DNA from: an uncultured Hyphomicrobiales bacterium
GTDB lineage: Bacteria; Pseudomonadota; Alphaproteobacteria; Rhizobiales; Beijerinckiaceae
Reading direction: 5' to 3'
Assembly (NCBI GenBank): GCA_903877935.1
Contig: CAIRGA010000146.1
Coordinates: forward strand, 1-46,434
Length of the DNA stretch: 46,434 bases
The position numbers and the translations under genes were made by a program. The notes beneath the pieces were generated by a model that was not told where the DNA came from, did not search any database, and saw only the letters and a list, made by a program, of their open reading frames with translations. Position 1 is the first letter of the stretch. Every line of letters starts with the position of its first letter. Below are positions 398-24,090 of the stretch, piece by piece.

Positions 398-835
398 ATG
401 GATCATTGTTCCATGAGTGTTCAAACGTCATCGACTGCGATCATCGAGCTCACCGCCGATATTGTTTCCGCCTATGTCAGCCACAATATTGTAAGCCCCT
501 CGGAGCTTCCAAACCTTATTCATGATGTTTACGACGCACTGATTTATTTTAGACCCGCCGAGAGCTATGTGGAGGTAACCGAACCGGTGAAGCCTGCCGT
601 TTCGGTCAAAAAATCAATAACGCCCGATTTCCTGATCTGCCTCGAAGATGGCAAGAAATTTAAATCGTTGAAACGGCATTTGCGCTCGCAATATGGCATG
701 TCACCGGACGATTACCGCGAAAAATGGGGACTTCCGCACGATTACCCGATGGTTGCGCCCAATTATGCCACCGCTCGTTCGGCCTTGGCCAAAGAAATGG
801 GTCTCGGTCAAAGCCGCCGCACGGCGCGTAAATAA
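398..835 (+). CDS. mucR: MucR/Ros-family zinc-finger transcriptional regulator
   Basis: 145 aa ORF containing PDFLICLEDGKKFKSLKRHLRSQYGMSPDDYREKWGLPHDYPMVAPNYATARSALAKEMGLG, the MucR/Ros signature; terminator-like hairpin follows. Confidence 0.93.
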   Translation: MDHCSMSVQTSSTAIIELTADIVSAYVSHNIVSPSELPNLIHDVYDALIYFRPAESYVEVTEPVKPAVSVKKSITPDFLICLEDGKKFKSLKRHLRSQYGMSPDDYREKWGLPHDYPMVAPNYATARSALAKEMGLGQSRRTARK

Positions 836-20404: not shown

Positions 20405-21595
<1,191 letters not shown>

Positions 21596-21689: not shown

Positions 21690-21704
21690 TTACCGGAAGG
21701 TTAA
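21690..21704. promoter_or_regulatory. CtrA-like site upstream of ccrM
   Basis: TTAC-CGGAAGG-TTAA (other strand TTAA-N7-GTAA), one mismatch to TTAA-N7-TTAA; overlaps the rnhB stop. Confidence 0.35.
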
Positions 21705-22306
21705 CCCTTCAACGGTGCAAAACTGAAGCGATGGATAGGGCACGCCCCGAGCATTTTAATCGCTTCCAAATGTTCGACGGTGCCATAGCCCATATGGCGT
21801 TCAAGGCCAAAGCCCGGCCAGAATTCTGCGGCCCTTACCATCAGCCGATCCCGCGTCACCTTGGCTAAAATCGAAGCCGCAGCAATTGAAACCGAGCGTG
21901 CATCGCCCTTCACCAAAGCCAGGCCTGGACATGGCAAGCCATCAGGCACATCTCGTCCGTCGATCAACACATAAGCCGGTTGAACCGCTAATCCGCGAAC
22001 CGCATCTGCCATGCCCCGCAAGGTTGCAGCCCTTATATTGATCGCATCAATGGTTTGCGCTGAAACGCTGACAATCGCAGCATGGCTCGTGGCAAGGATA
22101 TGCTCATAGAGCGCTTCCCGTTTTGCCGCCGTCAATTTTTTAGAATCATTGAGACCGATCGGGATATGGTCCGGATCCAGAATACACGCAGCCACAACAA
22201 CGGGACCCGCGAGCGGGCCACGACCGGCTTCATCGACACCTGCAACAGGTGCAACTCCACGAACCATCAAATCGGCTTCAAAGAAATAGTCGGGCTGATG
22301 GGTCAC
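21701..22306 (-). CDS. rnhB: Ribonuclease HII
   Basis: GTG start; [39 protein letters not shown]. Confidence 0.96.
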
Positions 22307-22313
22307 GCGAGAC

Positions 22314-23432
22314 TCAAAATAAATTCAACTGATCGCCAGCTCGTGCAGGCCGCTCGAACAAATCATTACGTAGGCGAAGGCGTTGCCTATTCAATCCCAG
22401 CCGTTCAGTCGCAAGCCTAAACCGTTGTGCAATCAATTCGGCATAAGGCCCCTCGCCGGTCATTCGCTCGCCGAAGCGGGCGACATAATCCTTGCCACCA
22501 CGCGCCGTTTGCACCAGCGATAACACGTGCCGCAATTTTCCGGGATGGTGCTCCAGTAACCATTCGCGAAACAAATCGCGTATTTCGAGTGGCAGCCTTA
22601 AAAAAATATAATTCGCTTCAAGCGCTCTTGCGCCCGCGGCAGCTTCTAATATTTTCTCGATCTCATGATCATTCAACGATGGGATAAGGGGAGCCACCAT
22701 CACACCCGTCGGTATGCCGGCCGCGATTAATTGCCTCACAGCATCAAGCCGCTTTGAAGGAGTGGCGGCGCGCGGTTCCATTTGCCGTGCGAGCACAGGA
22801 TCAAGCGTTGTGATCGATAGATGGACCTTCGCAAGGCCTTGCGCCGCCATCGGTGCCAAAATATCAATATCGCGCGTAATCAAGCCGGATTTGGTTACGA
22901 TACCGACGGGATGCTTAAATCGCGCCAAAACTTCCAACACGGAGCGCATAATTTTTCGCTCACGTTCAATCGGTTGATACGGATCCGTATTGGTTCCAAT
23001 CGCGATCATGCGCGGCGTGTAATTGGACGCCGATAATTCACGCTCCAATAATTCCGCCGCACCCTCTTTGGCATAAAGCTTTGATTCAAAATCAAGCCCG
23101 GGTGACAGTCCCATATAAGCATGCGTCGGACGCGCGAAACAATAAATGCAACCATGCTCGCACCCGCGATACGGATTGATCGAACGATCAAACGGCACAT
23201 CGGGCGATTCATTGCGCGTGATAAGCGTACGCGGCTTTTCAACCGTCACGCTCGTTTTAAAAACTGGAAGATCGGCCATCGAGTCCCAACCATCGTCTTC
23301 CGCAAGACGCGCAATCGGTTCAAAACGGCCTGAAACATTGGTCACAGCCCCGCGTCCGCGCCGCCGATCCCCATCGACGCCGTCAACGGCGAGCCTTTCA
23401 GCCACAAGCTCATTCTCGTTTGCGCGCGCCAT
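22314..23432 (-). CDS. PA0069/SplB-like radical SAM protein
   Basis: [40 protein letters not shown] (CxxxCxxC); 7 nt before rnhB. ATG at 23432 preferred over TTG at 23435. Confidence 0.93.
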
Positions 23433-23448
23433 CAAAGCCTCTTAATCA

Positions 23449-23463
23449 GAACATTATGAGAAC
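23449..23463 (-). promoter_or_regulatory. Alphaproteobacterial LexA (SOS) box upstream of radical SAM-rnhB
   Basis: + strand GAAC-ATTATGA-GAAC = GTTC-N7-GTTC on the minus strand, 16 nt upstream of the ATG. Confidence 0.7.
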
Positions 23464-23559
23464 ATCACGAAGCGCTATGATTCATCAAGCCCGAATTGGG
23501 TATCGGATGCCAAAAACAGAGGCAGGCATGTTTCATTTCTCTATGCTATTCGACGCGGC

Positions 23560-24090
23560 ATGATATCCGTGATCCTCCCCGCTCTTACCGAAGAGCCCGC
23601 AGCCATTGAAACGCTCGCCGCATTGGTCGAGGGCGTGGCCGAAGGCGTGCTGCGCGATTGTGTGTTGGTCAGCAGGAAGCCGTCGGACATGCTTGAAGGG
23701 TTTGCCGATGCCGCCGGCTGTGGCTTCACCGTAGAGGCAGGCCCTCATGAGGCCTTGGTTAAAAAAGGTGCCGAGCTGATTCGCGCCGATTGGTCCTTGG
23801 TCATAACGCCCGGTCTCGTCCCGTCTGGTGATTGGCTAACCGAGCTTGCCGATTGGATCGCCGATCGGCCGAGGCCAATGCATGCCGCACTCATCCCGTT
23901 CTATACCCGACGACATTGGACGGCCCGTCTCAACACCTTGATGATCAATGGCCAACCCATCGTCACAGGTAAACCGCATCCGCTACAAGGTAGCGTTGTC
24001 GCAACGGCGTTGCTGCGGCAAGGTACCTTGCCGCGGCTTGATATGCGCGCCCTTGATGCGCGAATGGTCGATCGCCGAACAATCTTTTAA
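23560..24090 (+). CDS. Putative glycosyltransferase family 2-like protein (short)
   Basis: 176 aa starting MISVILPALTEEPAAIETLAALVEG; GT2-like beginning, low-confidence family. Confidence 0.6.
   Translation: MISVILPALTEEPAAIETLAALVEGVAEGVLRDCVLVSRKPSDMLEGFADAAGCGFTVEAGPHEALVKKGAELIRADWSLVITPGLVPSGDWLTELADWIADRPRPMHAALIPFYTRRHWTARLNTLMINGQPIVTGKPHPLQGSVVATALLRQGTLPRLDMRALDARMVDRRTIF

Follow-up and report, generated by a model that had tools for sequence, protein, structure and literature searches.

Does a perfect LexA-type box place a poorly characterised radical SAM gene, together with the ribonuclease gene behind it, under control of the SOS response? The question is raised by a locus within a 46,434 nucleotide contig (the window) from an uncultured bacterium of the Hyphomicrobiales, family Beijerinckiaceae. 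The predicted LexA operator, GTTCTCATAATGTTC (GTTC-TCATAAT-GTTC), occupies 23449..23463 of the minus strand. Read directly from 23463 down to 23449, it lies 16 nt 5' of the ATG at 23432 of a PA0069-family radical SAM gene (SplB-like, COG1533; 22314..23432, minus strand, 372 aa) and falls outside the open frame of that gene. The gene for ribonuclease HII, rnhB (21701..22306, minus strand), begins with a GTG at 22306, 7 nt past the radical SAM stop codon. A ccrM-type adenine methyltransferase gene (20405..21580, minus strand) starts at 21580, 120 nt past the end of rnhB at 21701. The original prediction had described this box, the distances of 16, 7 and about 120 nt and the three gene identities, and all were borne out. 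Profile matches support the identities, with the NCBIfam RNase HII model at E 1e-71 together with Pfam RNase HII for rnhB, and NF050803 at E 2.1e-184, below its curated cut-off, for ccrM.

Conservation of the box and probable control by LexA

A single match to GTTC-N7-GTTC has no significance alone. The window holds two matches against 1.46 expected by chance, and the genome to which it belongs holds 49, most of them within genes, which is what would be seen if the box were a chance match and the radical SAM gene lay outside SOS control. It is conservation among orthologues, set against near-zero controls, that takes the box far past chance. Protein similarity was the sole criterion for collecting radical SAM orthologues, of which 80 came from a genome collection and 30 from relatives including the window's own, and 109 had sufficient upstream sequence to be scored over 300 bp on the strand of the gene. 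The repeat is present in 99 of the 109. Spacers of 0–6 and 8–15 nt occur in 0–6 loci each among the same upstream regions, control tetramers of the same composition in 0–2 loci, and a control stretch inside the radical SAM gene carries the repeat in 1 of 110. When redundant orthologues are removed at protein identities of 90, 75 and 68%, the box remains in 77 of 84, 54 of 61 and 31 of 35, where shuffling gives an expectation of about 0.5, 0.5 and 0.2. The consensus among orthologues is GTTCTTGNTTTGTTC. Three exceptions among the alphaproteobacterial orthologues (L062, L089 and L132) have a box with one mismatch, three others (L076, L134 and L109) have an exact box either farther upstream or on the opposite strand, and no clear box was found upstream of the alphaproteobacterial orthologue L139. 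The original prediction had named conservation upstream of orthologues as a check, and its answer is presence rather than absence of the motif. With the box kept at one exact spacer length over a background near zero, a chance origin becomes extremely improbable.

The genome's own SOS genes provide a second comparison that the original prediction had called for. The genome encodes lexA and recA, each with GTTC-N7-GTTC upstream, and the repeat also precedes uvrA/ssb, imuA, dnaE and rmuC, where imuA is identified by a match of 44.8 bits, below the curated cut-off of 150 bits. A position matrix trained solely on orthologue boxes from other genera, then applied to the 49 genome matches, places in its top nine recA, lexA, a Fic-adjacent site, dnaE (two copies), uvrA/ssb, rmuC, the radical SAM gene and imuA, in that order. 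The tenth-ranked match is intragenic and scores 2.8 bits lower than the ninth. The box of the radical SAM gene is weaker (16.6) than those of recA (24.6) and lexA (20.9). The matrix nevertheless ranks it together with the SOS boxes, and therefore the boxes of the radical SAM family and the SOS boxes of this genome are, at the level of sequence, one motif. The motif GTTCN7GTTC is also that described for LexA in a 2025 study of the Caulobacter SOS response (PMC12700426), in which two SOS genes carry GTTCttgttatGTTC, a sequence identical to the box at several radical SAM orthologues.

The Fic-adjacent site is a high-scoring LexA-like sequence, GTTCTTTTTTCGTTC (L002; genome G000, contig C11, 12759-12773), located 93 nt upstream of an ORF that carries Fic domains, and a link of this ORF to the SOS response is possible. 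An identical box, GTTCACGTTTTGTTC, occurs at L024 and L157 on contigs C103 and C220 of the same genome, one of them before dnaE; the second copy, at a contig end, may be an assembly duplicate. The other match in the window (408-422, plus strand) overlaps the start of a short gene and, given its low matrix score of 8.3, was judged probably a chance match rather than a LexA box.

Outside Alphaproteobacteria the operator itself changes. At radical SAM orthologues of non-alphaproteobacterial Pseudomonadota, the E. coli-type CTGT-N8-ACAG replaces the GTTC repeat in 24 of the 27 best loci and is found in 8 of 20 more distant ones; these loci are placed to phylum, with class assigned for L099 and L106 only. 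The first of these, from the gammaproteobacterium Marinobacterium rhizophilum, has CTGT-N8-ACAG at its radical SAM orthologue, and no box was found upstream of the orthologue in the second, from Methylomonas. SOS control has been retained although its operator was replaced, which argues strongly for selection on that control. The comparison strongly supports placing this radical SAM family, so far poorly characterised, among the core SOS genes, held under LexA even where the LexA motif differs, and such retention is a strong hint that the family handles DNA damage.

Given the orthologue conservation, the SOS boxes of the same genome and the operator switch, control of the PA0069-family gene by LexA is very likely. 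The proposal that DNA damage induces the gene thus gains strong support on the side of LexA/SOS control, while LexA binding and induction as such are predictions from these sequences.

Promoter layouts and neighbouring genes

A sigma-70 scan called no promoter at the site upstream of the radical SAM gene. A predicted −35 element, TTGATG (23483..23488, minus strand), was placed by eye where TTGAT is invariant in nine genomes of the genus, and a ribosome-binding region, AAGAGGC (23437..23443, minus strand), is predicted in a purine-rich stretch of GAGG/GGAG type kept across the genus. Here the box mostly lies 16–17 nt from the ATG, with the purine-rich stretch between them and the TTGAT upstream. 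The −10 element is predicted at the left edge of the box, where LexA, once bound, would cover it, and the transcript would have a leader of about 20 nt. In many other genera the box, GTTCTTGNNNTGTTC, includes a −35-like TTGNNN, with a −10-like element some 16 nt farther on. At 29 orthologue loci (among L031-L110 and L121-L140) the ATG comes 23–26 nt past the box and the −10-like element about 7 nt before the ATG, an arrangement that, by eye, predicts a leaderless mRNA. Both layouts are predicted to let LexA block RNA polymerase.

The intergenic region that contains the box is shared with a divergent gene of 176 aa (23560-24090, plus strand), which has no Pfam or NCBIfam match. Relatives of this gene divergently adjoin the radical SAM gene in many Hyphomicrobiales, and the box might on this basis serve mainly the divergent gene, with the radical SAM gene a bystander. 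However, the box persists at many orthologue loci where the divergent gene had no detected relative, the box-to-ATG distance on the radical SAM side is narrow at the 29 loci described above, and control continues in non-alphaproteobacteria under a different operator. A bystander role is consequently very unlikely, and the radical SAM gene is the preferred target of the box. The stretch separating the SOS promoter from the divergent gene holds a genus-conserved TGCC-N9-GGCA element, TGCCTCTGTTTTTGGCA on the minus strand (23508-23524).

The original prediction also had RNase HII co-induced with the radical SAM gene, and this part holds for a narrower range of organisms. In 76 of 110 radical SAM loci rnhB lies downstream in the same orientation. 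The gap between the two genes, 7 nt in the window, is mostly short in sister genomes, and gaps below about 60 nt are typical of the genus and a few others. In most other genera the gap is often 100–1100 nt, and at loci with such gaps no second box was found before rnhB. Tight coupling of rnhB, as judged from gene spacing, is mainly a trait of the window's genus. In the window rnhB is probably on the radical SAM transcript; co-induction is plausible, even likely, in this genus and uncertain elsewhere. A more ambitious reading joins the two genes into one functional SOS unit, where RNase HII would remove ribonucleotides left by SOS polymerases. The spacing in the genus, the frequency with which rnhB follows on the same strand and the box carried likewise by imuA of the same genome are consistent with such a unit. 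Set against this are the long gaps elsewhere, which have no box of their own, and 30 loci that lack rnhB although 1400 nt or more of downstream sequence is available, and we hold the idea as a tentative extension that is on balance doubtful. The adenine methyltransferase gene is best treated as a neighbour because a one-mismatch CtrA-like site, TTAACCTTCCGGTAAC, precedes it (from 21704 down), and ccrM is probably under its own promoter and outside the SOS unit.

Our results suggest a model in which a LexA operator is embedded within the core promoter of the PA0069-family gene, which would belong, as a conserved gene, to the SOS regulon of Proteobacteria. In the uninduced state, LexA would occupy the direct repeat and block RNA polymerase. 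RecA on single-stranded DNA would trigger LexA self-cleavage, and the radical SAM gene would then be transcribed, with the transcript very probably continuing into rnhB in the window's genus. The product is a [4Fe-4S]/SAM radical enzyme, most likely acting on damaged or abnormal DNA. We infer LexA binding, induction, read-through into rnhB and DNA as substrate from the sequences compared here.

Family, fold and cysteines of the radical SAM protein

The protein belongs to the PA0069 family, with a score of 542.5 bits against NF033668 (rSAM_PA0069; curated cut-off 360, E 3.6e-163) and a match to PF04055. The next best curated family, that of Rv2578c (NF038135), reaches 218 bits, under its cut-off of 430. 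An AlphaFold2 model (mean pLDDT 87.8) was used in a fold search, in which the six best solved structures are all spore photoproduct lyase (E ~2e-9 to 1e-8, TM 0.54–0.60), with 4k9r/4fhg at E ~2e-9 and TM 0.56–0.60. Searches of PDB sequences with the protein gave no convincing homologue, and the fold search alone gave matches. The three cysteines of the CxxxCxxC cluster motif (C91, C95 and C98) are invariant in 110 orthologues, and the Tyr within the motif is conserved among them.

This likeness could mean that the protein works as a genuine spore photoproduct lyase reversing a thymine dimer, such that SOS would induce direct reversal of UV damage, the interpretation given in PMC3323433. The nearest solved fold and the conserved CxxxCxxC with its internal Tyr are compatible with that identity. 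However, the hydrogen donor of the B. subtilis enzyme is an indispensable fourth cysteine, C141 (PMC3742179). The window protein has exactly three cysteines, all in CxxxCxxC, as do 61 of 110 orthologues in number, and no fourth conserved cysteine was found among the 110; the argument is from the absence of any fourth cysteine. Because of this absence, and with TIGR04070 (spore photoproduct lyase) scoring 21 bits where its cut-off is 400, the protein is not assigned to the spore photoproduct lyase family, and reversal of the thymine dimer is an unlikely function. The missing residue, essential in spore photoproduct lyase, cautions against the name 'spore photolyase' for the PA0069 family.

Our best guess is a radical SAM enzyme with a spore photoproduct lyase fold that acts on DNA, and it is the SOS regulation that makes a DNA-acting enzyme the best guess. 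Given the missing fourth cysteine, its chemistry would differ from the hydrogen-transfer chain of spore photoproduct lyase. DNA repair is the role we favour with some confidence, and a literature search found no DNA-repair activity of the PA0069 family. The fullest version of the proposal is an SOS-induced radical SAM enzyme that reverses or processes a DNA lesion by chemistry unlike that of spore photoproduct lyase, with no cysteine as hydrogen donor; its control by LexA would have survived across Proteobacteria despite wholesale replacement of the operator, and in this genus it would be locked to RNase HII for the simultaneous removal of SOS-polymerase ribonucleotides. As a whole it is speculative, and more probably wrong in some part than right throughout.

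Comparison with known systems

The locus had been put forward as an uncharacterised repair module, a description that is only partly right. A 2012 paper had already put splB-like genes under SOS control, and the analogy with spore photolyase fails at a catalytic residue. In that paper Sanchez-Alberola et al. (2012, PMC3323433), studying multi-chromosome species, predicted that splB of alpha- and betaproteobacteria is SOS controlled, and did not see the trait in Gammaproteobacteria. By homology, their splB would correspond to the PA0069 family. The present case resembles theirs in that a LexA box precedes an SplB-like radical SAM gene of Alphaproteobacteria and in arguing from conservation across divergent LexA motifs; it differs in reaching a genus of Beijerinckiaceae type as well as relatives whose boxes are E. 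coli-type, including one named gammaproteobacterium. The SplB radical SAM protein (COG1533) is SOS regulated in several species and was described in work on Bacteroidetes SOS networks (PMC8565304). The Bacteroidetes SplB is of the same broad family and likewise under LexA, although phylum, operator and LexA type are different. B. subtilis SplB shares the fold (E 2e-9) and CxxxCxxC with the window protein, which nevertheless differs in its ~17% identity over the fold alignment, its lack of a fourth cysteine, its SOS-type promoter and its score far under the TIGR04070 cut-off. The Rv2578c family, next best among curated families, is fitted far less well than the PA0069 model (218 versus 542 bits). 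Literature searches for PA0069 together with LexA, and for Rv2578c together with LexA, found no paper. PA0069 was reportedly placed within the P. aeruginosa LexA regulon by Cirz et al. in 2006. SOS control of the splB-like family is already known, and the window locus is a well-supported further instance. To this our analysis adds the two promoter layouts, the absence of the catalytic cysteine, limits on the rnhB claim and the extension of the family's SOS control beyond Alphaproteobacteria.
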